Shown here: positions 12,625 through 26,486 of the stretch, in pieces
How positions within the stretch are numbered: position 1 is the stretch's first letter
How the letters are laid out: the number at the start of each line of letters is the position of its first letter
Source of the DNA: Halococcus sediminicola
GTDB taxonomy: Archaea > Halobacteriota > Halobacteria > Halobacteriales > Halococcaceae
NCBI RefSeq assembly: GCF_000755245.1
Contig: NZ_BBMP01000011.1
Span: forward strand, 62,001 to 126,000
Length of the DNA: 64,000 nucleotides
Reading direction: 5' to 3'
The notes under the pieces: generated by a model
Seen by the model: the letters and a program-made list of their open reading frames with translations, nothing else
Told to the model about the DNA's origin: nothing
Database searches by the model: none
Made by a program: the position numbers and the translations under genes

Positions 12625-13248
12625 TTACTCGGATTCGGGTTCGTCTCGAGCGGCGGCGTTGGTGAGTCCCGTCGCGATGGTCTCGATCATCATGTCGCGG
12701 ACCACCGGGTAGAGGTCCGCACCGATTTCGTCCTCGTGGAAGGCGAGAACGGCGACCGAGTCGATGGTGGCGGCGAGAACCTCCGGGTCGCCCTCCCGAA
12801 TCATCCCGGCCTTCTGCCACTCCCTGATGTAGGGCATGACGTAGCCGAGTTCGCGCGTGCGCTGTTCGATGAACTCCTCGTCGGAATACAGATGGAGCAA
12901 CTGCTCCACTTCGTTACCGGCGAGCAGTCGTTCGATTATCGGGTTCGTCTCCAGTTCCTCGAAGACGATGTGGAGGTACTCGACGATCGCCCGTTCGGGG
13001 TCGGAGTGCTCTTCGAGCGGTGTGACGGCGCGCTCGTAGAACTGCTTGCCCTCGCGTTCGAGGATTTCGAGGTAGAGCTCCTCCTTCGAGTCGAAGAACT
13101 GGTAGAACGTGCTCGGTGCGATGTTCACGGGGTCGGTGAGATCGGTCATCGTCGTCTTCTGCAGCCCGTAGCGCGCGAAGAGTTTCCGGCCCTCGTCGAG
13201 CAGTTCCTGTCGAATGTATCGTCGTTTTTCGTCGCTGAATCCTTTCAT
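12625..13248 (-). CDS. TetR/AcrR family regulator of the ABC-2 exporter
   Basis: A 207-residue TetR-family repressor. The N-terminal helix-turn-helix is clear (TTMTDLTDPVNIAPSTFYQF near residues 32-51, then DSKEELYLEILEREG), and an all-helical ligand-binding part follows. It is the last gene of a four-gene minus-strand unit (ATPase, two permeases, regulator) and probably represses it until a transported compound binds. Its likely operator is the ATTCAT..ATGAAT palindrome at 15961-15978. The ligand is unknown. Confidence 0.9.
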   Translation of the reverse strand: MKGFSDEKRRYIRQELLDEGRKLFARYGLQKTTMTDLTDPVNIAPSTFYQFFDSKEELYLEILEREGKQFYERAVTPLEEHSDPERAIVEYLHIVFEELETNPIIERLLAGNEVEQLLHLYSDEEFIEQRTRELGYVMPYIREWQKAGMIREGDPEVLAATIDSVAVLAFHEDEIGADLYPVVRDMMIETIATGLTNAAARDEPESE

Positions 13249-13309
13249 GATGCTGGTTGATCGGGTGTCGTGTTCGAGTTGGTCTCGAAGACCGGGCGGT
13301 TCGTCCGGG

Positions 13310-14101
13310 TCACTGGATGTCCATTCGGGTGAAACGAAATTGGCTCACGGCCACCAACACGACGGCGACGGCGAGCAGGATGGCCCCACCGGCGATGTCG
13401 TAGGTCCCCTCGACAAGGATTTCGTTCGGGTCGATGTACGCCATCGGGGCGAGGTTGCCGAGCCACTCGACGTCCGTCGAGACGACGAGCGACTGGAGCA
13501 TGAACAGCGCGAACAGCACGCCGAGCGCCGCGTTCTGGGCGGTGTCCTTGTCGGCGAGATACACCGACAGCACGAGTCCGATGGCCCCACAGCAAAACAG
13601 GTAGGGAATCGACAGTCCGTGCAACACCGCGAGGTCGGTGAGCGACACCGATTCGCCGACCATCGCCGCGCCGAGATAGACCACGCTCGGCACGACGAGG
13701 TTGGCGACGACGATGGGCACCAGTAGTGAGAGAAACTTCTCGAAGAGCACGCTGGTCCGCGAGACAGGTGCGGCGAGCAGCGTGTCCATCTCGTTGGTCT
13801 CGATATCGCCCGCGATCGAGCCGGCCGCGCTGTAGGCGAGATAGATGCCGAAAAACAGCAGCCAGAAGAGGGTGTAGAACTCGCTGGCCAGTAACCCTTC
13901 GATGCTGCCGAGGCTCTCGAAGCCGAAAGCCTCGACGAATACTGGAGGGAGTTCCTCGCTGAGCGATTCGAACTCGCCACCGGCGACGATCTGTGGGCCG
14001 AGCGCGAGGAAAGCGATCGCCATCACCGAGAACGCGGCGCTGATACCGAACGCGCCCCGCACGCGGTCGTTGCCCTCGTAGCGGAGCACTTCGAGCGCCA
14101 T
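13310..14101 (-). CDS. ABC-2 type exporter permease, second copy
   Basis: A 263-residue integral membrane protein of the ABC-2 permease type, with about six hydrophobic helices. It is paralogous to the preceding permease: both begin with a short (V/L)(A/L)RYEG segment and share GDIET(N/G)xMDTLLAAPVSR and near-identical C-terminal helices. Its start overlaps the stop of the upstream permease by one base, so translation is coupled. The two probably form a heterodimeric channel driven by the ATPase encoded upstream, exporting a drug, lipid or other compound. The substrate is not predictable. Confidence 0.85.
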   Translation of the reverse strand: MALEVLRYEGNDRVRGAFGISAAFSVMAIAFLALGPQIVAGGEFESLSEELPPVFVEAFGFESLGSIEGLLASEFYTLFWLLFFGIYLAYSAAGSIAGDIETNEMDTLLAAPVSRTSVLFEKFLSLLVPIVVANLVVPSVVYLGAAMVGESVSLTDLAVLHGLSIPYLFCCGAIGLVLSVYLADKDTAQNAALGVLFALFMLQSLVVSTDVEWLGNLAPMAYIDPNEILVEGTYDIAGGAILLAVAVVLVAVSQFRFTRMDIQ

Positions 14102-14883
14102 CAGATGTCCATCCCCCTGAAGCGCAACTGGCTCGCGAGCACCAACACGAGGGCGGCCGCGAGCAGAATCCCCGCGCCCGCGATGTCGTAGCTCCCGTCG
14201 ACGAGGATTTCCGTCGGGTCGAAGTAGTTCATCGGGGTCAACACGCCGAGGTCCTCGTAGTCCGTGCCGACGAACACCGTCTCGACGAGGAAGGCGACGA
14301 CGAGCACGCCGATGGCCCCACGCTGGGCGAGGCTCTCGCTCCCGAGAAACACCGAGAAGGCGAGCCCGACGGCCGCACAGAAGAGGAGATACGGCACGGC
14401 GAGTGCGTGGAGCGCGACGAGATTCGCAACGCTAATCGGCTCGTTGATGACGCCCGCAGCGACGTAGATCACCGCCGGAGTGATAGCGTTGACCGCGAGG
14501 ATCGGTACGAGCAACGAAAAGAACTCCTCGACGATGATCGTGCCCCGCGAGACGGGCGCGGCGAGCAGCGTGTCCATCCGCCCGGTCTCGATATCGCCGG
14601 CGACCATCGAAGCCGCGTTGTACGCGAGGTAGAGGCCGAGCACGAGCAGCCAGCCGATCTGGTAGAGTTCGACCGCGAGGATACCCGCGAGCGAATCCAT
14701 CGCCTCCAATCCAAGTCCCTCGGTGAGCTGTTCGGGGTAGGCACTGAGGAGGCTCGTGATGTCGAAATCCGCCAGCGAGGGAGCCAGCGCGACGAACATC
14801 GCGCCGTAAAAGCCCGCCGCGGCCGCGATGGTGACACCGAGCACGAGGCGGCGCTCACCTTCGTACCGTGCGACCTCAAACAT
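14101..14883 (-). CDS. ABC-2 type exporter permease, first copy
   Basis: A 260-residue ABC-2 permease with about six membrane helices, paralogous to the following permease. ATG at 14883 (MFEVARYEGERRLVLG) is chosen over the upstream ATG at 14955 because it aligns with the paralogue and the extra 24 residues are Cys/Arg/Pro-rich and lie over the ATPase gene. The start overlaps the ATPase stop by eight bases. The conserved cytoplasmic motif GDIETGRMDTLLAAPVSRG is present. Confidence 0.87.
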   Translation of the reverse strand: MFEVARYEGERRLVLGVTIAAAAGFYGAMFVALAPSLADFDITSLLSAYPEQLTEGLGLEAMDSLAGILAVELYQIGWLLVLGLYLAYNAASMVAGDIETGRMDTLLAAPVSRGTIIVEEFFSLLVPILAVNAITPAVIYVAAGVINEPISVANLVALHALAVPYLLFCAAVGLAFSVFLGSESLAQRGAIGVLVVAFLVETVFVGTDYEDLGVLTPMNYFDPTEILVDGSYDIAGAGILLAAALVLVLASQLRFRGMDI

Positions 14884-15937
14884 CGACGAGTCTCCCGGAT
14901 TCGGGTTCCTCGTCGGGTTCGACCTCGCCGTAAAAGCGCATGAACACGTCTTCAAGCGGGGCGTCCGAGATATCGAGGTCGAGCACGTCGTACTTGACGA
15001 GGTGTTCGAGCAGTTCGTTGTAATCGCCCGTGAAGGTGAAACTCACGCTCGTGTCCTCGCGGTCGCTTGAGAAGGCGTCATCGTCGTCGGAGCGGTCGCC
15101 ACCGCCGGACCGCTCCGCGGCCCGGCGAGAATCGCGCTCGCTTCGTTCGCGCTCACCCCCATCGGCTGCGGCCTGCCGTGACGGCTGCTCGTCGCCGGTG
15201 ATGGAGAGGTCGTGTGCGCCCTCGATGGCGAACTCGCCTGCTTCGACAGGACCGGCGATACGCACCGAGACGCGCTTGCCACCCCGATCGAGCAGCGTCT
15301 CGACGTCTTCGAGTTCGACGAGGTGGCCGTTCCGAATGACGCCCACCCGGTCGCAGATCTTCTGGACCTCGCTCAGGATATGCGAGGAGAAAAAGAACGT
15401 CTTCCCCTTGGCCTGTTCGTCGCGGATGAACTCGTAAAACCGCTCCTGCATCAGCGGGTCCAGCCCCGAGGTCGGCTCGTCCATGATGACCAGATCGGGG
15501 TCATGCATGAACGCGAGGACGATGGCGAGTTTGCGCTTGTTTCCCGTCGAATACTCGCCGATCGCCCGCTCCATCGGCGGGTCGAACAGTTCGAGCAGCT
15601 CCTCGCTGCGCGTATCACCTTTGAGCGAGGCCTGATAGCGCAGAAATCGCTCGCCAGTGACGCTCTCGTCGAAGCCCATCTCGGCGGGGATGTATCCCAG
15701 ATGGCGTTTGGCCTCGATCATCGCGTCCCGGTCGGTGACGTCGTAACCCAACACCGTGGCACTCCCGCTCGTCGGGGACTGAAAGCCCATCAGCGTGCGG
15801 ATGGTGGTCGACTTGCCCGCACCGTTCGGTCCCAAATATCCGAAGACCTCGCCCTCGCGCACCGCAAAAGAGAGGTTCTCGTTGGCGCGGACCTCGCCGT
15901 AGTGTTTGGTCAGCCCGTCCGTTTCTATTGCAGCCAT
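14876..15937 (-). CDS. ABC transporter ATP-binding protein of an ABC-2 exporter
   Basis: A 353-residue ATPase of the CcmA/drug-exporter class. Walker A is GPNGAGKSTT (about residues 38-47), the signature is EYSTGNKRKLAIV (the usual LSGGQ is STGNK), Walker B is LVIMDEPTSGLDP and the H-loop is FFFSSHILSE. After about residue 225 a long hydrophilic insert rich in Arg, Asp and Ser (GGDRSDDDDAFSSDRED) precedes a conserved end, VLDLDISDAPLEDVFMRFYG. It energises the two permeases encoded downstream, and it is the first gene of that operon. The insert length is unusual, as typical members are about 300 residues. Confidence 0.92.
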   Translation of the reverse strand: MAAIETDGLTKHYGEVRANENLSFAVREGEVFGYLGPNGAGKSTTIRTLMGFQSPTSGSATVLGYDVTDRDAMIEAKRHLGYIPAEMGFDESVTGERFLRYQASLKGDTRSEELLELFDPPMERAIGEYSTGNKRKLAIVLAFMHDPDLVIMDEPTSGLDPLMQERFYEFIRDEQAKGKTFFFSSHILSEVQKICDRVGVIRNGHLVELEDVETLLDRGGKRVSVRIAGPVEAGEFAIEGAHDLSITGDEQPSRQAAADGGERERSERDSRRAAERSGGGDRSDDDDAFSSDREDTSVSFTFTGDYNELLEHLVKYDVLDLDISDAPLEDVFMRFYGEVEPDEEPESGRLVDV

Positions 15938-16095: not shown

Positions 16096-18399
16096 ATGAA
16101 TGGAAGACAGATTACGACTATCGCGCTCGTAGCACTGCTTGCCGTTCCGGCGGCTGTTACCGGCTTCTCGACCGGACCGGTCGCCCAGCAGGCCGGCCCG
16201 GTGGCCAACAACTCGACTACTACTGCAAACGACTCGGCCGCTCCGGCTGCCACGACCGACGAATCGACCGCCCCGAGCACTCAGACGGCATCGCCTGATG
16301 CCGACTTCGAAGTGGTCGATGTCGATGCTGACCTCCAAGTCGGAGAACAAGGGACCGTTGCGGTGACGATCGAAAACCAAGGTGAAGACGCCGCGGACGT
16401 CGTTGTCAACCTCCAATCCCGGAGCAGTTCTCTTGTTTTCGGTGAGTCGGCGACCGCGAGCCAGTTCGTCGGTGAGTGGGACGAGGGCGAAAACAGGACC
16501 ATCGAACTCGATGCGACCGTTCCCTCAGGTGGAGAAGCGCGCAGCTATCCGGTAGAGGCCACCGTCTCGTACGTGAACGACGATGACGACCAGAGCCAGT
16601 CCGCACCGCTCACGTTCGGCGTCACGGCAGGCGAAGGCGACGAGGATTTCGCGATCGTCTCGACTTCGTCGGATGTAGCGGTCGGTGATACCGGCAACCT
16701 CTCGGTCGTGCTCGAAAACCAAGGCGGAGACATCGAGGACGCCGTGATCAACCTTCAGACACTCAGCGGAACCGTCACCTTCGGTGGGCTGGCAAACACG
16801 AGCGAGTTCGTCGGCGACTGGGAGGCCGGCGAACAGCGAACCATCGAAACCGACATCAGCGCCGCATCGAGCGCCAGAGAACGCAGCTACCCGGTGCAGG
16901 CGACGGTCGCCCACGAAGACGACGGACGAGAGACGCAGGCCGGCCCGTATCTCTTCGGCGTCACACCCGCGGGCGAGCAGGCGTTCACGCTCGATGGCGT
17001 CGATAGCTCACTCGCCGTCGGCGAGGAAGGGACGGTCTCAGGAACCATCACCAACGACGGTCCCAAGAACGCGACCGACGCGACGCTGGTGTTCGCCGCG
17101 AACGCGACCGGTGACCTCGTGCCGCGCCAGTCCGAAGTCGTGCTGGAGGACATCAGTCCCGACGGATCGGTCGATTTCGAATACCCGTTCGTCGTCAACG
17201 GCTCCGCCGAACCCGGCGAGCGCCAACTCCCGTTCGTGGTGCAGTATCGGAACGCCGCGGGCGAGACGGTTCGAAGCGAGCGACTCACCACACAAGTGAT
17301 AATCGACGACCGCGCCGACGAGTTCGCACTCGAAAACGTCGCGTCGAACGTGCAGGTCGGCGACACGGGGACCATCGACCTCACGCTCCGCAATACGGGG
17401 TCCGACAGGGAAGACGCCTCGGTGACGCTCGAATCGTCGAATGCGCAGGTATTGTTCGGCAACAGCACGTCCGCGACCCGCTACGTGGGTGAGTGGGAAG
17501 CGAACGAGACGAAGACGGTCTCGTTCGGGACGACCGCGACGCCCGACGCCTCGGTGGAAGCCTACGCGCTCACCGCACAGGTAAGCTATCTGGACGACGG
17601 TCAGCCGGTCAGCTCTCAGCAACTATCGATGGGTATCAGTCCCCGTGACGAACAGGCCTTCGCCATCAACACGACCGACACCACGCTCCGCATCGATCGC
17701 GATGGGAGCCTCAACGGGACGGTCACGAACGCCGGGCCACTGCCCGTGAGCAACGCGACGATTCGACTCAGTAATCGCTCCGGAATCACGAGCGAGCGTG
17801 CAGCCTACCCCGTCGGGAATTTGGACGTCGGCGAGAACGAGACTTTCAGCTTCCCGGTATCGGTGCAGGGTGGAGCCACCGGACCACAGCAAGTCGAGTA
17901 CTCGGTTGCCTACACGGGCCCGACGGACAACAGACGAACCGACACCGGCTTCATGAGCCAGGTGGACGTCGCGCCACGACGGCCACTGCTCACCACGACG
18001 ATCGAAGACCCGAACGTCACCGTCCAGCAGTCCGAAGTGATGAACGTCACGGTCACGAATCAGGGCAGCGAGACGCTGCGGAACGTCCAAGCGGTCCCCA
18101 ACGGGAGCGGGTCGCTGGCGGTCTCACCAACCAGTCTGTTCGTCGGGCAGCTCGAACCCGGCGAAACGGTGACGCGACAGCTCGAAATCGACGCCGACGA
18201 CGTCGAGGTCCCGAGTCGGATACCGCTCATCATCGACTTCCAGTACGAGACGAACAGTAATGAGATGCGACAGACGCAAGCGCCGCCGGTCGGTATCGCA
18301 GTGGTCGCCGCCGAATCGGGTCTCGTCACCGGGCCGGTCGTGGTTGGCGCAGTGCTCCTCATCGTCGTCCTCGGCGGACTGATCTGGTATCTCCGATAG
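16096..18399 (+). CDS. CARDB-repeat (COG1361-like) surface protein, membrane-anchored
   Basis: A 767-residue secreted protein. A Sec-type signal (MNGRQITTIALVALLAVPAA) is followed by a Thr/Ser/Ala-rich segment, about six immunoglobulin-like CARDB repeats of roughly 110 residues, and a C-terminal membrane helix ending GGLIWYLR. Repeats 1, 2 and 4 carry LFG...FVGEW-type motifs; repeats 3 and 5 are a second type with NDGP or NAGP. Many NxS/T sites suggest N-glycosylation. ATG 16096 gives a normal signal peptide, though GTG 16033 and ATG 16039 are in frame. The gene is divergent from the ABC-2 exporter and paralogous to the protein at 22689-25874. It may act outside the membrane as a partner of the exporter or as cell-surface structure; this is inference. 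Confidence 0.82.
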   Translation: MNGRQITTIALVALLAVPAAVTGFSTGPVAQQAGPVANNSTTTANDSAAPAATTDESTAPSTQTASPDADFEVVDVDADLQVGEQGTVAVTIENQGEDAADVVVNLQSRSSSLVFGESATASQFVGEWDEGENRTIELDATVPSGGEARSYPVEATVSYVNDDDDQSQSAPLTFGVTAGEGDEDFAIVSTSSDVAVGDTGNLSVVLENQGGDIEDAVINLQTLSGTVTFGGLANTSEFVGDWEAGEQRTIETDISAASSARERSYPVQATVAHEDDGRETQAGPYLFGVTPAGEQAFTLDGVDSSLAVGEEGTVSGTITNDGPKNATDATLVFAANATGDLVPRQSEVVLEDISPDGSVDFEYPFVVNGSAEPGERQLPFVVQYRNAAGETVRSERLTTQVIIDDRADEFALENVASNVQVGDTGTIDLTLRNTGSDREDASVTLESSNAQVLFGNSTSATRYVGEWEANETKTVSFGTTATPDASVEAYALTAQVSYLDDGQPVSSQQLSMGISPRDEQAFAINTTDTTLRIDRDGSLNGTVTNAGPLPVSNATIRLSNRSGITSERAAYPVGNLDVGENETFSFPVSVQGGATGPQQVEYSVAYTGPTDNRRTDTGFMSQVDVAPRRPLLTTTIEDPNVTVQQSEVMNVTVTNQGSETLRNVQAVPNGSGSLAVSPTSLFVGQLEPGETVTRQLEIDADDVEVPSRIPLIIDFQYETNSNEMRQTQAPPVGIAVVAAESGLVTGPVVVGAVLLIVVLGGLIWYLR

Positions 18400-18827: not shown

Positions 18828-19424
18828 CTATTCGGCGAGGAGATGTGAGTCGACGAACCCTGCTATCGCCGCGCGGGTCTGGGCCGTGAGGTCCTCGGTC
18901 GTCGTCGCACGCCGAAGCATCGCCCCGTTGATGCTCGACACGAGCAGTTCCGTGGTCGTCTCGACATCGACCGCCCGGAACGTTCCGTCGTCGACACCGG
19001 CTGCGAGGACGGTTTCGAGCGTCTCGTAGATGAGATGGTCGGCGCGGGCGAACTGCTCGGAGTAGGCCGTATCCGAGAGCGCCCGCGAGCGCAACTCGAA
19101 CAGTGCGACCTGTGACTCGCGTTGCTCGTCGTCTGGCGACGCCGGCAGGAACTCGTCGATAAGCGTCCACAGCTGCTCGTCGGGGCTGTCTTCCGTGTCG
19201 ATGGTGTCCTCGATAGTGAACTCGTCGAGCATATATTCTAGAAAGGCGATGAGGATCTCGTCTTTCGTGTCGTAGTGGTAGTACAGCAGCGATTTGCTCT
19301 TCGGGAACTCGTCGGCGATCGCCTGAATCGTGAGATCGGCGTAACCGTGCTCGCAGAGCGCGCGATAGGTCGCTTCCATGATCTCCGACTGCGTACCGGG
19401 TTGGTCGGTCGTGTCCGCGTCCAT
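18828..19424 (-). CDS. TetR/AcrR family regulator of the RND export locus
   Basis: A 198-residue TetR-family repressor. The helix-turn-helix is LTIQAIADEFPKSKSLLYYH (about residues 31-50), followed by YDTKDEILIAFLEYM and a helical ligand-binding domain (TetR_C). It has its own promoter: CCTTTTGA (minus strand, 19449-19456) and a palindrome at 19428-19443 lie directly before the ATG, so it is probably autorepressed. The same palindrome before the CARDB-RND operon points to that operon as its main target. It lies just beyond the last gene of that operon. Confidence 0.92.
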   Translation of the reverse strand: MDADTTDQPGTQSEIMEATYRALCEHGYADLTIQAIADEFPKSKSLLYYHYDTKDEILIAFLEYMLDEFTIEDTIDTEDSPDEQLWTLIDEFLPASPDDEQRESQVALFELRSRALSDTAYSEQFARADHLIYETLETVLAAGVDDGTFRAVDVETTTELLVSSINGAMLRRATTTEDLTAQTRAAIAGFVDSHLLAE

Positions 19425-19427
19425 GCA

Positions 19428-19443
19428 GACTAACTATTCAGTC
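19428..19443. promoter_or_regulatory. Probable TetR operator GACTAACTATTCAGTC
   Basis: A 16-bp imperfect palindrome with perfect GACT/AGTC ends sits between a TATA-like CCTTTTGA (minus strand) and the tetR ATG at 19424. Very similar 16-mers occur at 12366-12381 (14 of 16 identical on the opposite strand) and 26174-26189 (11 of 16 identical), each next to a TATA box. Confidence 0.6.
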
Positions 19444-19470
19444 AACGATCAAAAGGCTGTCGCCCTCGCC

Positions 19471-20241
19471 TCACCACTCGTCGATGTACTGGGTGAACCA
19501 GACGTCCAGTAGCCCGACGAGCACCGCCGCGAAGCCGGTTTCGCTGCTCCAGACCGCGGCTTCGCGACGAACTCCCGGCAGTTCCTCACCACCGAGAACA
19601 CTTATCAGGACCGTATCGGCGTCGACGACGAGGACGCGACCGCTACGCTCGTCGTCGGGCGCACCGGTGACTGCACTGACCGTCACCTCACCATCGTCGA
19701 AGCGTTCCCGTACGCTGTCGCTCGCGGTCAGGACGGTCACGTCGACGCCGCGCTCGCTGGCGGCGACGAGCGCGTCGGCGATCGGTTCGTCGAGGGCCGT
19801 GACCTCTCTCGGTCCGAAGACGATTCGACTGTTGGCCTCGGTGACGAGCTTCACGACCCGGTTGTCGATCGTCTCGCGGCCCTGCACCGTCCAGATGTCC
19901 TCTTGGGATTCGCTTTCGTCGGCGAACTCCTCGCGTGCCGATTCGAGGTAGTCGAACGCACGCTCTTCTTCCCTGTCGAGGCGCTCTCTGAGTCGCGTTC
20001 GCGCCTCGTCGAGTTCGACCGCGCGGTACTGTATCGGGTTCGACTGCTGGATGTCGAGCAGGCCGCGCTCGGCGAGGTCCTCGGCAGCCCCGTAGATCTG
20101 CGACCGCGGGACCTCGGTCATCCGGTCGACGTCACGGACGACCCCGGTATCGAGCCGTTGGAGCGCGATGAACACTTGGGCCTCGTAGCTCGACAATCCC
20201 AACCGCTTGAGTGCCGCGACCGCCTCGTCGTGATCGGTCAT
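19471..20241 (-). CDS. TrmB family transcriptional regulator
   Basis: A 256-residue TrmB-family protein. The N-terminal winged helix reads LGLSSYEAQVFIALQRLDTG...EVPRSQIYGAAEDLAERGLL. A coiled segment (DEARTRLRERLDREEERAFD) follows, then a TrmB C-terminal phospholipase-D-like regulatory domain (IVFGPREVTALDEPIADALV). Its start overlaps the stop of the RND gene (ATGA), so it is cotranslated with the pump and is likely part of the same response. In this family the C-terminal domain binds a small ligand. Having both a TrmB and a TetR regulator on one export locus suggests two inputs. Confidence 0.88.
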   Translation of the reverse strand: MTDHDEAVAALKRLGLSSYEAQVFIALQRLDTGVVRDVDRMTEVPRSQIYGAAEDLAERGLLDIQQSNPIQYRAVELDEARTRLRERLDREEERAFDYLESAREEFADESESQEDIWTVQGRETIDNRVVKLVTEANSRIVFGPREVTALDEPIADALVAASERGVDVTVLTASDSVRERFDDGEVTVSAVTGAPDDERSGRVLVVDADTVLISVLGGEELPGVRREAAVWSSETGFAAVLVGLLDVWFTQYIDEW

Positions 20242-22685
20242 GCGAACCGCCCCCAGACCACGACCACCGACGGCGTAACGAGGATGGCCGCGATGTACGC
20301 GAAGAAGATGCTCAGCGCGAGCACCAGCCCGAACTGGCCGAGAATCGGCGTGATGGCGAGGGCGAGGACGCCGATACCTGTCGTGGTGGTAAGCATACTG
20401 CCGGTGAGCGCGCCGCCGGTTCCCCGAACAGTCTCTTCGAGCGCGGGGAATATCTTCTCGTCGGACTCGTGGTACTCGTCGGCGAAGCGGTGGACGAAGT
20501 GCGCCGAGTAGTCGATGCCGAGACCGATGGCGATCGAGAGGATCGTCGCCGTGAGCGCATTGAGCGGAATGCCGAAGAGGCGCATCGACCCCGCAAGGAG
20601 CGCGACCGAGACGACGATCGGCGCGAGATTGACGAGTCCGAGCGAGGGCCGACCCTCGATGACGTAGTAGACGAGCACGAGGAAGATGGCCGTCACGACG
20701 AGGGCCGTGACGAGGCTCCGAATCGCCGAGGAGAAGATGGTCCCCGAGACGGCTTCGAGCACGATGGTCTGGCCGGTGGCGGTCGCCGTGAACTCGTAGC
20801 GGTTGGCGAGCGTCCGTGCGTCGCTTTCGATTTCGTCGTTCGAGGCGTCGCTTTCGGTCGAATAGACGACTTGGGTACTATGGTAGTCCTCGGTGATGTA
20901 CTGGAGCGCCTGCGTGCGATACGGCGAGTCGAGCAGCGCGTCGTAGATGGTCCCCAGATCATCGTCGGGCACGCCGTCGTCGTCGACGTCGTTGCGCGCG
21001 ACCAACTGGGCGAACTCGGGCGATTGTGCCGCGTAGTCGTCGATCACGGTGATGATGCTCTCGGTATCGGCCATCCGGTCGCTCGCGACGAACGCGTCCG
21101 GCGGGTTCCGGTTGGCGCGCTGGATGGATTCCAGGGCGTAATCGTCGCGCAACGGTCCCTCGGCGTAGACCGTCACCGAACTGCCCTGGGTGGTGCTGAA
21201 GCGCTCTTCGAGGAAGTTCGTCGTATCGGTCACGGTGTAGGTGCCGGGCGCGAACGGTTCGGGGAGGTTCTCGACGTACCCCGGCACCTCCTCCGGCGGC
21301 AGGAAGTCGTCCTGCGAGAAGGAGGTGTCGACGCCGGTCGCGTAGACGCCCGAAACCGCCGTCAAAACGACCGTCAGCACGAGCAGCGCGTACGGCGCGC
21401 GTTTGGCCGCGCCGACGCCGACCATCAGCGCCCGTCCCAGCACCGAGCCTTCCGCCCCCAGTGGGCTGAGGCCGAACTCCGGGACGTCGTATTTCACGCG
21501 GAGTTCGTCGGCCCAGACCTTCGCCGCCGGCAGGAAGATCCCGAAGATCAGGAACGTGAAGACGATGCCGATGGCGGCGACGAGTCCGAACGATCGGATC
21601 GGGGCGAGGTCGCTGATGAGGTTCGCACCGAAGCCCACCACAGTCGTACCGGTAACGATGAAGAAGGCCACCAGGAGTTGGTCGGTCGCGGTCCGCATCG
21701 ACTGGCTGATACCGATGCCCTGGACGCGCTCTTCGCGGTAGCGGTTGATCGCGTGGATGCCGAAGTCGATACCCACCGCGAGCAGCAATGGGGGCACGGC
21801 GATGAGCATCTGGGAGAAGGGCAGTCCCGCGAGTCCGGTGAACCCGAACGTCCAGACGACGGTCATCACGAGCGCGAACACACCCAAGAGGAGATCGATT
21901 GGGTCGCGGTAGGCGAAGACCAGAAAGCCGAGGATCAACAGCGACGCCGCCGGCACGACGATGAGCAGCGAATCGAAGATGACACTCGAGAGTTCGTCGG
22001 AGGTAATGCCGCTGCCGAACACCTGGATGTCGCTATCGACCGTCCCGACGATCTCCTGTGCGCGGATCTGGATGTCCGTGAGCGGACTCGTTCCACCCGT
22101 CCCCGCCGACGACGAGGAGACCCCACCGAGCACGTCGTGCTGGACGGTCCCGATCGTGGCCGAGGCCGACGCCGACTCGCGATTGAAGTCGTTGCTCACG
22201 AGTCCTGTGAAGCCGGGGCCCGCGGCGGCCGTCTGAATCGCGTTTTCGATTTCGCCCGTCGTCGCGCCTTCGAGCGCGCGGATCTGGCCATCGACGCTCG
22301 TCGCGTTCGGGTCGATGGTCTGGGCGACGATCCCGGCGGCGCTCGACGAGGAGACCACCCGTTGACTCTCGTGGTCTTCGAGGCGCTGTTGGGCTTCGAG
22401 CATCGCCAACAGTTCGTCCTTGGCGAGCACGTTCGACCCCGACTGGATGAGCTGTGTGCTGCCGTTACCCGCCTCGAAGGCGGGCGAGAACTCCTGGTCG
22501 ATGTCGTCGAGAGCGGCCTGTGCGGGGCTTTCCTCGGTGAACTGGCTCGTCCCGGCGTCCGTCGAGATGTTCGTGAGTCCGACCGCGAACACCGCCGTGA
22601 CGAGGAGGAACGCGATGATCACCGTCCGCGGCCGTTCGGTGATCCACTCGTCGATCCAGTCGATGTAGCGTTGGTACTCGACCAT
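20238..22685 (-). CDS. RND superfamily (MMPL) exporter
   Basis: An 815-residue RND/MMPL protein with two homologous halves, each a large extracellular domain plus about six helices. The helix-4 motifs with the proton-relay Asp are present in both halves, GIDFGIHAINRY (about residue 303) and GIDYSAHFVHRF (about 723). The N-terminus is a short cytoplasmic start then a membrane helix. Such proteins export lipids, hopanoids or hydrophobic drugs, or assist membrane assembly, using the ion gradient. It starts three bases after the stop of the CARDB gene upstream and overlaps trmB by four bases, so the three genes form one operon. Confidence 0.9.
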   Translation of the reverse strand: MVEYQRYIDWIDEWITERPRTVIIAFLLVTAVFAVGLTNISTDAGTSQFTEESPAQAALDDIDQEFSPAFEAGNGSTQLIQSGSNVLAKDELLAMLEAQQRLEDHESQRVVSSSSAAGIVAQTIDPNATSVDGQIRALEGATTGEIENAIQTAAAGPGFTGLVSNDFNRESASASATIGTVQHDVLGGVSSSSAGTGGTSPLTDIQIRAQEIVGTVDSDIQVFGSGITSDELSSVIFDSLLIVVPAASLLILGFLVFAYRDPIDLLLGVFALVMTVVWTFGFTGLAGLPFSQMLIAVPPLLLAVGIDFGIHAINRYREERVQGIGISQSMRTATDQLLVAFFIVTGTTVVGFGANLISDLAPIRSFGLVAAIGIVFTFLIFGIFLPAAKVWADELRVKYDVPEFGLSPLGAEGSVLGRALMVGVGAAKRAPYALLVLTVVLTAVSGVYATGVDTSFSQDDFLPPEEVPGYVENLPEPFAPGTYTVTDTTNFLEERFSTTQGSSVTVYAEGPLRDDYALESIQRANRNPPDAFVASDRMADTESIITVIDDYAAQSPEFAQLVARNDVDDDGVPDDDLGTIYDALLDSPYRTQALQYITEDYHSTQVVYSTESDASNDEIESDARTLANRYEFTATATGQTIVLEAVSGTIFSSAIRSLVTALVVTAIFLVLVYYVIEGRPSLGLVNLAPIVVSVALLAGSMRLFGIPLNALTATILSIAIGLGIDYSAHFVHRFADEYHESDEKIFPALEETVRGTGGALTGSMLTTTTGIGVLALAITPILGQFGLVLALSIFFAYIAAILVTPSVVVVWGRFA

Positions 22686-22688
22686 CGA

Positions 22689-25600
22689 TTACCGTCTCGA
22701 CCAGACCCAGCCGACGCCGAACAACACGAGCAACGCGCCGAGACCCCACATCACCGACAGCGACGAGAGGATGCCGCCGTCGTCGCTCGCGACGAGTTCG
22801 ACCGGCACCTCGTAGGTGTCGGAGAGCTTCGATTCGCCACCCGAATCGTACTGGAAGTCGACCGAGAGCGGGTACTCGCCGGCGCTCGCGTCGCCGCCCG
22901 AACTCACGTCGAAGGCGATCTGCTGGGTTTCACCGGGGTTCAGTTCGGCGATGTACGCCTCGTCGCTCGAAAGCGATAGCGGGTCGTCGACGAACGCCTT
23001 CGCGTTGACGTTGCTGACTGTACTGTCGCGGTTGTTCGTCACGTTGAGCGTCACCGTGCCCGACGCGCCGACGTCGAGACTCGAATTCGCCCGCTCGACG
23101 AGGAACTCGTCGCGCTGTGGTTCGACCCCGACCTGCGTATCGAGGGTGCCGCTCCGGCGTGTGTCGCCGTTCTGGTTGTCGTACTCGACGATGAAGGAGA
23201 ACTGCTGTTGGCCGGGTTCAGCTCCATCAGTGACCTCGACTGGCAGCGAGAAGTTCGCCGCCTCGCCGGCCGGCAGACTGCCGATGGCGACTTCGGTCGT
23301 CTGTGGCTGGATGTTCTGGCTCTCGGAGACGAGCGTCACGACCGCGTTCCGTGTGTCCTGCGGCCCCTGATTCGTAATCGTGCCCGTGACGTTGCCCTCG
23401 TCGCCGACGGCCAGCGTACTGTTGGTATTCGAGAGTGTGAACGTCTGTTCTGGCTGTGGCGTGATGCCGAGCGTGAACGAGTCGGACTGGCCCACGTCGC
23501 CGTTGCTGTCCTTGTACGAGATCGATGTCTGGAGCGGGTAGCTCTGGGTCTCGGACTGGTTGCTCGCGGTCGCGTTGAACGTTACTGTCCGCTCGGCCCC
23601 GGCGGGCCACTCGCCGACGAACTGCGTGGCGTTCGCCGCCCGACCGAACAGGATGTCGCCCGTCAGCGACTGGAGCGACACTGTGGCCTCCGAGACGTTC
23701 TCGCCACGGTTTTCGAGCGTCACGCTCACCGGTCCCTCGTCGCCGACCTGCACTTCGGAAGACGAGGAGACCACCGCGAAGTCGTCCTGTCCCTCGTCGG
23801 GTTCGACACCGAAGGAGAACGGTCCCGACTGCGCTTGATCGCCGTCGGCATCGTCGTAGGTGAGCGACGCCTGCATCGGGTAGTTCCCGCCTGTGGTGCT
23901 GTCGGCGGCGGTCACGTCGAACTCGAAGGTCCGCTGTTCGCCCGTATCCCAGTCGGCGACGAACTGACTGGCGTTGGCCGACTCACCGAACAGGATGCTG
24001 CCGGAAAGCGACTGGAAGCTGACTGTGGTATCGGTGACGTTCTCGCCGGTGTTGTTCATCGTGACCGAAAGCGTCCCCTGCTCGCCGGCCTCGACATCGG
24101 CCTCGACGTCGGTGATCTCGAAGTCGTCGCTCTCGGCGTCGATATCGACCTGTGCGTTGAGCGGCTTGCTCTGGAGGGGGTTCCCGTCCGAATCGTAATA
24201 TTGCACGACGAACTGGACCTGCCGTTCGCCGGGTTCGGCAGTACCGTTGACGAGTACGGGCAGTTCGAACGACTCGGATTCGTCCGCGTCGAGGTCGCCG
24301 AGCACGTACTGAGACTGGCGCGGGACGACGTCCCGGCTGCCGTTGGGCGAGACGGCGAGCACCGCGTCGGCGGCCGCTTCGGGACCCTCGTTCGAGATCG
24401 TTCCCGAGATCGTTCCCTTCTCGCCGACCGCAAGGTCACTATCGACGCCGCCGAGGGTGAACCCCTGTTCTGACTCGAGCGTGACGCCGAACGTCAGCGG
24501 CGCGGATTGAGATTGGTTGCCGTCGTCATCGTCGTACGAGACCGTCGCCTGAATCGGATATTCGGCCGTGTCCGCACTCGGCGACGCGCGCATCGTCACC
24601 TCGACGGTGCGGCTCTCGCCCTCGTCCCAGTCACCGACGAACCGGCTCGTCTCCGGCGACTGGCCGAAGGTCAGATCGCCCGACTGCGACTGGAAGCTCA
24701 CGACCGCGTCGGTCGCGTCCTCGCCGGTGTTCTCGATGGTCACCGAGACGTTTCCCGTGCCGCCGACCACCACGTCCGAGGAGACCGACGTGATCTCGAA
24801 CTCGGCGTCCGACGACGCTCCGGAATCACCGGCCGCTGCGCCTGCACCGCCCGCTCCCGCCACACCAGCGCCACTCGATCCACTGGGGGCCGCGCCTGCT
24901 CCGCTCGGTGCGCCGGAAGGTGCTGCACCCGCTCCGGCCGGAGCAGCGCCCGCACCGCTGGCCCCGCTGGGTGCACCACCCGAAGGCGCTGCACCTGCCG
25001 ACGGCGCTGCACCGGATGCGCCTGCGGATCTACCGGACGTTGCTCCGCTCACTGCCGCACCGGATGTGCCGCCGGGCGACTGGCTAGCCCCGGCCGGCGA
25101 ACCACTTGCCGCCGCCCCGCCGGCGGCCGCGCTCGACGGTGCGGCTTCAGTTGGTGGACTTCCGCCAGCCGCCGCGCTCGGTGCTCCGGTCGAGGGAGCG
25201 CTCGCTCCCTCAGCCGCTCCGCTGCTCTGTGGCGGCGCATCCGCCTCGCCACCGCTCGGCGGCGCTTCGCTAGCTCCACTCGTGTCGCCGGGTGGCGCAC
25301 TTCCGCTCTCCGGCGCTTCGCCTTCGGTCGATGATGGCGTCTCCGATGAAGTCGTCTCCTCCGTCGACGTTTGCTCTTCGCCCGACCCGTTCGAGTCAGT
25401 CACTTCGTCCGACTCATCCGGCTCATCCGAGCCGTTCGTTTCGCTTCGTTCTCCGTCCGAAGTCCCCGTTTCACTCGACGTGTCCGTCTCAGTCGGGGTA
25501 TCGGTTGCCGTCTCGGTCGTGGTCTCGGCCTCAGTTTCAGTCGAGGTCGGGGTCTGCGTGGTACTCGTTTCAGTCGGTTCCGTCGTTCCATCGGTGATCG

Positions 25601-25874
25601 ATTCCGTCGTGGTTGCATCGTCGGAAGGTGTCCCATCGGCGTTCTGTGCCGACAAACCCTCATCGTCGTCGGCCTCGGCGTTCGCGGCCGCCACGCCATC
25701 CGTGGTCTCCGATGACTCGGCGATCGAAGTCGCGCTCGACGCATCCGACACCGTCGTTTCGTCGGTGGTGTCGTTCCTCGCATTCGAGAAGGAATCACCG
25801 GTGAGCACGCCAGCGACGCTTCCCTGCACGGTGAGCAACACGACGAGGACGGCTGCGACTGCGGCACGATTCAT
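22689..25874 (-). CDS. Large CARDB-repeat surface protein with mucin-like stalk
   Basis: A 1061-residue secreted protein. Residues 1-25 are a Sec signal. Residues of about 30-180 are Thr/Ser/Glu-rich and about 180-360 are almost only Gly, Ala, Ser and Pro. Six CARDB-like repeats follow, alternating the LFG...FVG(D/E)W type with the N(E/Q)GP type, and a C-terminal helix with a basic end (LVLFGVGWVWSRR) anchors it. It is the first gene of the operon with the RND exporter and TrmB and is paralogous to the protein at 16096-18399. The stalk may cross the S-layer. A role as an extracellular adaptor of the pump is inferred from the operon only. Confidence 0.85.
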   Translation of the reverse strand: MNRAAVAAVLVVLLTVQGSVAGVLTGDSFSNARNDTTDETTVSDASSATSIAESSETTDGVAAANAEADDDEGLSAQNADGTPSDDATTTESITDGTTEPTETSTTQTPTSTETEAETTTETATDTPTETDTSSETGTSDGERSETNGSDEPDESDEVTDSNGSGEEQTSTEETTSSETPSSTEGEAPESGSAPPGDTSGASEAPPSGGEADAPPQSSGAAEGASAPSTGAPSAAAGGSPPTEAAPSSAAAGGAAASGSPAGASQSPGGTSGAAVSGATSGRSAGASGAAPSAGAAPSGGAPSGASGAGAAPAGAGAAPSGAPSGAGAAPSGSSGAGVAGAGGAGAAAGDSGASSDAEFEITSVSSDVVVGGTGNVSVTIENTGEDATDAVVSFQSQSGDLTFGQSPETSRFVGDWDEGESRTVEVTMRASPSADTAEYPIQATVSYDDDDGNQSQSAPLTFGVTLESEQGFTLGGVDSDLAVGEKGTISGTISNEGPEAAADAVLAVSPNGSRDVVPRQSQYVLGDLDADESESFELPVLVNGTAEPGERQVQFVVQYYDSDGNPLQSKPLNAQVDIDAESDDFEITDVEADVEAGEQGTLSVTMNNTGENVTDTTVSFQSLSGSILFGESANASQFVADWDTGEQRTFEFDVTAADSTTGGNYPMQASLTYDDADGDQAQSGPFSFGVEPDEGQDDFAVVSSSSEVQVGDEGPVSVTLENRGENVSEATVSLQSLTGDILFGRAANATQFVGEWPAGAERTVTFNATASNQSETQSYPLQTSISYKDSNGDVGQSDSFTLGITPQPEQTFTLSNTNSTLAVGDEGNVTGTITNQGPQDTRNAVVTLVSESQNIQPQTTEVAIGSLPAGEAANFSLPVEVTDGAEPGQQQFSFIVEYDNQNGDTRRSGTLDTQVGVEPQRDEFLVERANSSLDVGASGTVTLNVTNNRDSTVSNVNAKAFVDDPLSLSSDEAYIAELNPGETQQIAFDVSSGGDASAGEYPLSVDFQYDSGGESKLSDTYEVPVELVASDDGGILSSLSVMWGLGALLVLFGVGWVWSRR

Positions 25875-26363
25875 CGGAATTGGCCCCGCACCGAGTCAAC
25901 AGGCGATTCGCTTCCCACCGACGGACGACGAACGAGATGGTCGTCCCCCGTTGTCTGTATTTCTCTACTAACGGAGCTCATGCTACGATTACCGACTGGA
26001 GTGACTATACAGTTTCCGATGGACGATGGTTGGTCTCGACTCGTCTCATGTTCTCGAAAAGGCATTGCTCGCGCCTCCAGACCCGGCGTGACTTGCTCAC
26101 GCGAGAACTGTGCCGGGGTCGTGATCGCCATATCCCCCCTCAGAACCGGCCGTGTTTCGTCTCCACCCATATAGACTGAACAATCAGTTAAGGATAAATG
26201 GCTTTCGTATCCACGTTCAACCGAGATCGATAGCAGGCATCTACTTCGTCGGTCCCGTGTCTACTGCACTCAGGACACGCTCCGATGGATGAATTTCTGA
26301 CGAGTACGATTTGACAGCTAGTTCCGTTTCAGCCCCGCTCTGGACACTAAACTGAGTCGAGAA
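25875..26363. other. Leader and promoter region of the CARDB-RND operon
   Basis: About 490 bases lie between the CARDB start and tRNA-Met. The far part holds the TATA-operator pair at 26174-26199, which would give an mRNA leader near 300 bases. One frame spans that leader (25871-26170, minus strand, 99 codons). It ends in an ATGA overlap with the CARDB start, but is basic and Ser/Thr/Arg-rich, unlike its neighbours. Another TATA-like CTGTATAG (minus strand, about 26005-26012) could start a shorter mRNA. Nothing else is seen. Confidence 0.4.
26174..26199 (-). promoter_or_regulatory. Promoter and TetR operator of the CARDB-RND-trmB operon
   Basis: On the minus strand TTTATCC (26193-26199) is a good TATA box. 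Directly downstream lies a palindrome, GACTGAACAATCAGTT on the plus strand (26174-26189), with perfect ACTGA/TCAGT arms. The layout (TATA, then operator, then start of transcription) is the same as before the tetR gene at 19424, so repression would work by blocking the pre-initiation complex. Confidence 0.55.
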
Positions 26364-26486
26364 TGCCCGGGGTGGGCTCCGAACCCACGATCTCCGCATG
26401 TCCCAGGTCCGAGGCGACAGCCTCGGGGGAGCGCACTCGGTGAAACCCTATGAGTGCGGCGCTATGTCCAGCTAAGCCACCCGGGC
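26364..26486 (-). tRNA. tRNA-Met (CAU), elongator type, with intron
   Basis: The acceptor stem is GCCCGGG/CCCGGGC, the T-arm is GTGGG TTCGGAG CCCAC, and the anticodon stem CCGCA/TGCGG encloses loop CTCATA+A with anticodon CAT. Exon 1 is 26449-26486 and exon 2 is 26364-26399. A 49-base intron (26400-26448) sits after position 37, the normal archaeal site, cut at a bulge-helix-bulge by the splicing endonuclease. The start GCCCGGGTGGCTTAGCTGG matches haloarchaeal elongator tRNA-Met, not the initiator. CCA is not encoded. Confidence 0.93.

Follow-up and report, generated by a model that had tools for sequence, protein, structure and literature searches.

The DNA analysed here, a 64,000-nucleotide window from the haloarchaeon Halococcus sediminicola, contains on its minus strand what its ORF coordinates show to be a tight operon, in which a gene for an Ig/NEW3-repeat protein of the COG1361 type is followed by genes for an RND/MMPL pump and a TrmB-family regulator. 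The repeat-protein and pump genes are separated by 3 bp, the pump and TrmB genes overlap by 4 bp, and a TetR-family gene lies downstream of the TrmB gene after a further 46 bp. The first-pass annotation of this locus, which described a 1061-residue repeat protein, an 815-residue pump, a TrmB regulator and an adjoining TetR gene, is exact to the base in its coordinates and spacings. The features of the locus and of the gene preceding it in the window are as follows.

16096-18399, plus strand: second, solo Ig/CARDB-repeat protein, 767 aa, a paralogue of the pump partner, adjoining an ABC exporter
18828-19424, minus strand: TetR-family regulator, 198 aa, a variable neighbour (TetR_N 36 bits, TetR_C_6 47 bits)
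19471-20241, minus strand: TrmB-family regulator, 256 aa, 4-bp overlap with the pump gene (TrmB profile 57 bits)
20238-22685, minus strand: RND/MMPL (HAE3-like) exporter, 815 aa, MmpL/HpnN/NPC1 fold (profile and fold matches)
20508-20513, minus strand: TM10 D725-Y726 of the pump; of 212 paired pumps, 175 have D/E here and 35 have A
21762-21767, minus strand: TM4 D307-F308 of the pump, at the position of the MmpL DY pair; D/E in 211 of 212 paired pumps
22689-25874, minus strand: type I membrane protein of 1061 aa with Ig/NEW3 repeats (COG1361/CARDB-type), homologous to the HVO_A0466-type RND-associated proteins
22704-22760, minus strand: its C-terminal transmembrane helix, aa 1039-1057, followed by RR; single TM
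22782-23102, minus strand: NEW3 repeat next to the membrane, aa 925-1031, more conserved than any other part of the partner family
23103-24812, minus strand: five Ig-like repeats, aa 355-924, of two alternating types; the modelled part is beta-only
24813-25808, minus strand: low-complexity A/S/G/T/E/P segment, aa 23-354, 332 residues, rich in A/S/G/T, at the end away from the membrane
25803-25874, minus strand: signal-peptide-like N-terminus, hydrophobic aa 6-24 (Kyte-Doolittle only)

The repeat protein matches the Pfam family NPCBM_assoc/NEW3 at 62.8 bits (cut-off 24.4) and has six Ig-like repeats in all, starting at residues 355, 470, 583, 693, 806 and 925. Those that start at 355, 583 and 693 are of one type (43-52% identical), those at 470 and 806 are of another (38%), and the NEW3 repeat stands apart from both; its residues N947, P965, Y1001 and Y1009 are kept in 98-100% of 212 partners. 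The protein also bears 19 N-glycosylation sequons. Its earlier designation as a CARDB-repeat protein holds at the level of type (COG1361/CARDB-NEW3), as relatives with such repeats carry the COG1361 S-layer family annotation and its paralogue and relatives match Pfam CARDB, but in Pfam the 1061-residue protein itself matches NEW3 and not CARDB. Going outward, the order of its parts is transmembrane helix, NEW3 repeat, other repeats and low-complexity tail, the last being placed outermost because the anchor is C-terminal. The long stalk with a C-terminal anchor that had been proposed is therefore correct as to the anchor, but the low-complexity segment belongs at the outer, N-terminal end, outside the repeats. 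Across relatives the partner ranges from 279 to 1480 aa, with a median of 548 where its gene lies upstream of the pump gene and 368 where it lies downstream. The partners at five loci (L075, L083, L089, L139 and L142) have a long acidic tail after the transmembrane helix, on the predicted cytoplasmic side.

The pump matches MMPL (PF03176) in two stretches at 105 bits, which is over the cut-off, and also matches SSD-type domains in Pfam. The nearest NCBIfam family is TIGR00921 (HAE3), for which the window pump scores 211.2 bits against a curated cut-off of 351.9, whereas relatives from other families in the phylum score above that cut-off; the window pump is thus related to TIGR00921 but outside the curated family. 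A model of the pump obtained from a read-through fusion has the 12-TM-type RND fold with two extracytoplasmic loops, and its best matches among solved structures are MmpL5/MmpS5 (8zkp), MmpL4 (9syj, 9gi0), NPC1/NCR1 and HpnN. Acidic-aromatic pairs are present in both TM4 and TM10, and in MmpL the DY pairs couple protons (PMC12803245).

The pairing of an RND pump with an Ig-repeat protein was already published in 2024 for Haloferax volcanii (Sailer et al. 2024, PMC11349517). There, the RND permease HVO_A0467 is induced 44-fold under iron starvation and shares an operon with HVO_A0466 (the 'RND-T-associated protein'), a secreted glycoprotein predicted to be a fibre made up of four Ig folds and to have a transmembrane segment at its C-terminus; such pairs were found adjacent in 21 haloarchaeal genomes, a functional interaction was proposed, siderophores were suggested as the substrate, and deletion of HVO_A0467 had little phenotype (PMC11349517). 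HVO_A0466 is N-glycosylated (PMC8241124). The pump at a Haloferax alexandrinus locus (L352) contains three published HVO_A0467 peptides at their published positions; the window pump shares 48% identity with it over 808 aa, and between the window partner and the H. alexandrinus partner, which was used for comparison rather than HVO_A0466 itself, identity is 36% over 364 aa. Since the peptides and these two identities link them, the window pair belongs to the HVO_A0466/HVO_A0467 kind: the pumps are homologous, and a homologous Ig-repeat partner with a signal peptide and a C-terminal transmembrane helix is encoded directly upstream. It departs from that type in that the window partner has 1061 aa as opposed to the 462 annotated in H. 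alexandrinus, with six repeats and a long low-complexity tail, and in that the two window genes are 3 bp apart, whereas those of H. alexandrinus overlap by one base, and the window pump gene overlaps at its end with a TrmB gene. The literature that we searched holds no account of the spread of such pairs to other families of the phylum, of reversals in gene order, of co-occurrence counts or of a comparison with MmpS-MmpL.

We surveyed 80 named haloarchaeal loci together with others taken from genomes across the family, class and phylum, using one partner HMM throughout. The survey covered 289 full-length pump ORFs, and 234 of these have a same-strand partner gene immediately beside them, on the upstream side in 206 cases and on the downstream side in 28; the gaps mostly lie between -4 and +27 bp. 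After removal of near-copies, and with some assignments corrected by hand after inspection, 216 of 260 non-redundant pumps have an adjacent partner, 192 of them upstream and 24 downstream. The linkage is not due to chance, and the breadth of the pairing rules out its absence elsewhere, which the first-pass annotation had named as grounds for abandoning its proposal. The downstream order has arisen through at least six changes on the pump tree while the pair stays together, so the partner is retained despite rearrangement, and pump and partner distances correlate (r=0.88). Beyond the haloarchaea, further families of their GTDB phylum also keep the pair, some with a downstream partner and a 4-bp overlap, and the annotation of the Halobacterium salinarum plasmid PHS3 places a 'COG1361 S-layer family protein' 4 bp before an 'MMPL family transporter'. 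In the pump ORFs at 286 loci, no fusion of pump and partner genes was noticed. A paralogous pump clade in the same genomes (L055-L061, about 870 aa and 31-34% identical) is never paired.

The 44 of 260 pumps that lack an adjacent partner, and other departures from the common arrangement, take several forms. At three Halorussus loci (L091, L101, L124) the partner lies on the opposite strand at a distance of about 3.7 kb, and at a further locus (L141) it is 0.65 kb from the pump. In two drafts from a neighbouring genus (L051, L053) the partner adjoins a broken pump gene, which may reflect faulty assembly or genuine decay; elsewhere in the same genus there is an intact pump with no adjoining partner. 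Haloarcula rara (L098) has one partner with two tandem pumps, and two loci (L102, L140) have two complete pairs close to each other. Outside the haloarchaea, two different repeat proteins are encoded in tandem after or near the pump at five loci (L303, L308, L281, L319 and L283), the order at L319 being RND-CARDB-CARDB-TrmB. Large RND proteins of 1103 and 998 aa (L314 and L317, respectively) are unpaired, with no adjoining repeat-protein gene, and the gene for the latter overlaps a TrmB gene by 4 bp.

Co-occurrence was examined in 103 haloarchaeal genomes, with the C-terminal 472 aa of the partner as query and a pump ortholog defined by E<1e-200. All 66 genomes with a pump ortholog have a strong partner match, as compared to none of the 36 without one, among which there are four weak matches (E 6.6e-4 to 3.8e-13); the remaining genome (G035) has a strong match as well, and a more distant HAE3-type pump lies right beside its partner gene. 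The Fisher exact probability for this distribution is 1.4e-28, a value that ignores phylogeny, and the absences span several families. This co-occurrence suggests that pairs which have become separated may still act in trans.

The regulators are less constant than the pair that they accompany. At 27 loci a TrmB-like gene comes after the pump on its strand, often with a 4-bp overlap, and at 16 one is divergent before the pair; TetR-like genes are divergent before the pair at 16 loci and follow it at nine. Given these recurring neighbours, local regulation is a recurrent trait, but the regulator used varies, and the TetR gene noted earlier, although present here, is no constant member of the operon. 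A TetR operator-like palindrome spotted by eye upstream of 25874 was dropped when its consensus pattern had no match in the window. On the other side of the TetR gene, the solo paralogue of the partner is divergent from an ABC-2-type exporter at 12625-15937 (minus strand), which comprises an ATPase and two permeases and has a TetR gene of its own. Two of the four weak partner homologues (L353, L354) adjoin ABC ATPases resembling the one in the window, and another solo homologue (L115) lies near a related ABC ATPase. The Ig-repeat fold is therefore not exclusive to RND pumps, and these solo homologues suggest that it may also serve ABC exporters. An elongator tRNA-Met(CAT) gene with a 49-nt intron lies at 26364-26486 (minus strand); it was found only with introns allowed and is absent from the default ARAGORN and Rfam results.

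Among systems already described, the mycobacterial MmpS-MmpL systems are the best functional analogue that our comparisons identify for the archaeal pair, without homology of the accessory proteins being implied. MmpS is an operon partner with a single transmembrane helix and an outside beta-sandwich, which contacts the transmembrane and porter domains of MmpL (PMC12803245, PMC12346298). As in MmpS4-MmpL4 and MmpS5-MmpL5, an MMPL-type pump is encoded in the same operon as a single-TM extracytoplasmic beta-sandwich accessory, and the archaeal pump has the MmpL fold and DY-pair position. Where MmpS has a single beta-sandwich domain, the archaeal protein carries several Ig repeats and is anchored at its C-terminus; it lacks the MmpS layout of an N-terminal transmembrane helix plus one beta-sandwich and has no match to the MmpS profile in Pfam. 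The model of the archaeal pump, unlike MmpL, also has no visible coiled-coil domain. HpnN, NPC1, Patched and Dispatched share the pump fold and the SSD/MMPL domains, and we know of no homologous Ig-repeat partner for any of them. The AcrA/MacA membrane fusion proteins likewise are accessory subunits encoded beside an exporter gene, but the archaeal partner has neither their family signature nor their hairpin or lipoyl architecture, and its host has no outer membrane channel. Membrane fusion protein profiles (AcrA/MacA/HlyD) in Pfam and NCBIfam do not match the repeat protein at E 0.01, and an alpha-helical hairpin or lipoyl domain is absent from the modelled C-terminal 380 residues, which are beta-only save for the transmembrane helix and to which the remaining repeats are homologous. 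On these grounds a bacterial-type adaptor was rejected.

Physical interaction was explored with AlphaFold2 on natural read-through fusions, in which the stop codon was read as G and 88 in-frame paired loci supplied paired rows; the runs were in monomer mode, with one copy per chain and a two-residue linker. The fusion of 380 partner residues to the pump gave a pTM of 0.68 and that of the NEW3-TM part to the pump 0.80, values that are about those expected from the pump alone, and the partner transmembrane helix had a pLDDT of about 47-65. Because that helix stays at low pLDDT we claim no interface, and neither fusion, in this mode, has a confident one. Such modelling had been proposed as a check on the complex; with two single-copy fusions it is a weak test that does not refute binding, since monomer mode, single copies and a two-residue linker could overlook a trimer, or contacts at a distance from the pump N-terminus. 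Mean-field coevolution over 212 pairs (Neff 128) gave inter-protein scores no higher than the noisy intra-protein ones; it likewise tests binding only weakly and does not refute it.

Taken together, the pump and the repeat protein very probably work together as functional partners, and direct binding between them is likely. We favor, with a probability of roughly 0.6, the reading that the locus encodes a two-component exporter made up of an RND pump and a dedicated extracytoplasmic Ig accessory subunit that works like MmpS. The 815-residue protein would be an ion-driven HAE3/MmpL-type pump, in which the acidic-aromatic pairs of TM4 and TM10 occupy the MmpL proton-relay positions, and the 1061-residue protein its accessory, an Ig chain held on a C-terminal helix with NEW3 at the membrane and the variable tail directed outward. 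The NEW3 domain and the helix may touch the porter domain of the pump and so stabilize or gate the assembly, as MmpS does with MmpL, while the outer Ig repeats would stretch toward the S-layer. TrmB, and here TetR, would regulate expression of the operon locally. The exported substrate may be amphiphilic compounds, or it may be siderophores, which have been suggested for HVO_A0467. Weighing against this reading are the AlphaFold2 and coevolution results, the 44 pumps with no adjoining partner, the solo homologue next to an ABC exporter and the slight phenotype of the HVO_A0467 deletion (PMC11349517).

The same gene neighbourhood could also arise if the repeat protein were an envelope or S-layer-associated glycoprotein, made with the pump in a single response to envelope stress or nutrient limitation and having no contact with it. 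Its resemblance to other COG1361 'S-layer family' proteins is in keeping with this idea, as are the N-glycosylation of the Haloferax homologue (PMC8241124) and the lack of an interface from AlphaFold2 or coevolution. Strict co-presence (66/66 versus 0/36), spacing that is near zero or overlapping and retention of the pair through order reversals exceed what co-regulation usually brings, however, and most such repeat proteins in these genomes adjoin a pump; we regard co-regulation without contact as unlikely, though well worth keeping in mind. The first-pass annotation had gone further in the opposite direction, toward an adaptor linking the pump to the S-layer. A conserved pump/repeat-protein pair does exist, and gene pairing and an outward-reaching architecture are what one would expect of a fibre that attaches to the pump and provides a path for substrate to or through the S-layer, in the way that AcrA-TolC serves AcrB. 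This strong, conduit form is nevertheless unsupported and appears quite improbable, given that the partner has no match of the membrane-fusion type and no alpha-hairpin or lipoyl domain in its modelled part, that lengths of 279-1480 aa ill suit a conduit of fixed length, and that the S-layer is porous already. We think that an accessory subunit reaching outward, a softer form of the adaptor idea, is to be preferred. The roles might conceivably be reversed, with the RND protein helping to release, fold or position the Ig-repeat protein as the working product, in the manner of Dispatched or SecDF; the pump shares its fold and SSD-type domains with Dispatched, Patched and SecDF, but the repeat protein has an ordinary signal peptide and transmembrane anchor with no sign of a lipid anchor, and the closest studied haloarchaeal pump responds to iron limitation (PMC11349517), so that we consider such a role very improbable.

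Beyond the MmpS-like accessory that we favor at this locus, it is a speculative and rather doubtful, if possible, extension that archaea lacking an outer membrane possess an accessory class of their own, in which anchored Ig fibres bind the pump, bridge to the S-layer and serve both RND exporters and, as solo proteins, ABC exporters. The strict co-inheritance of pump and Ig fibre makes the accessory-subunit hypothesis testable in Haloferax volcanii, where such a pair has been described and is amenable to gene deletion. The similarity to MmpS-MmpL suggests, moreover, that MmpL-type pumps may generally have beta-sandwich accessories as partners where cells lack a classical outer membrane channel.
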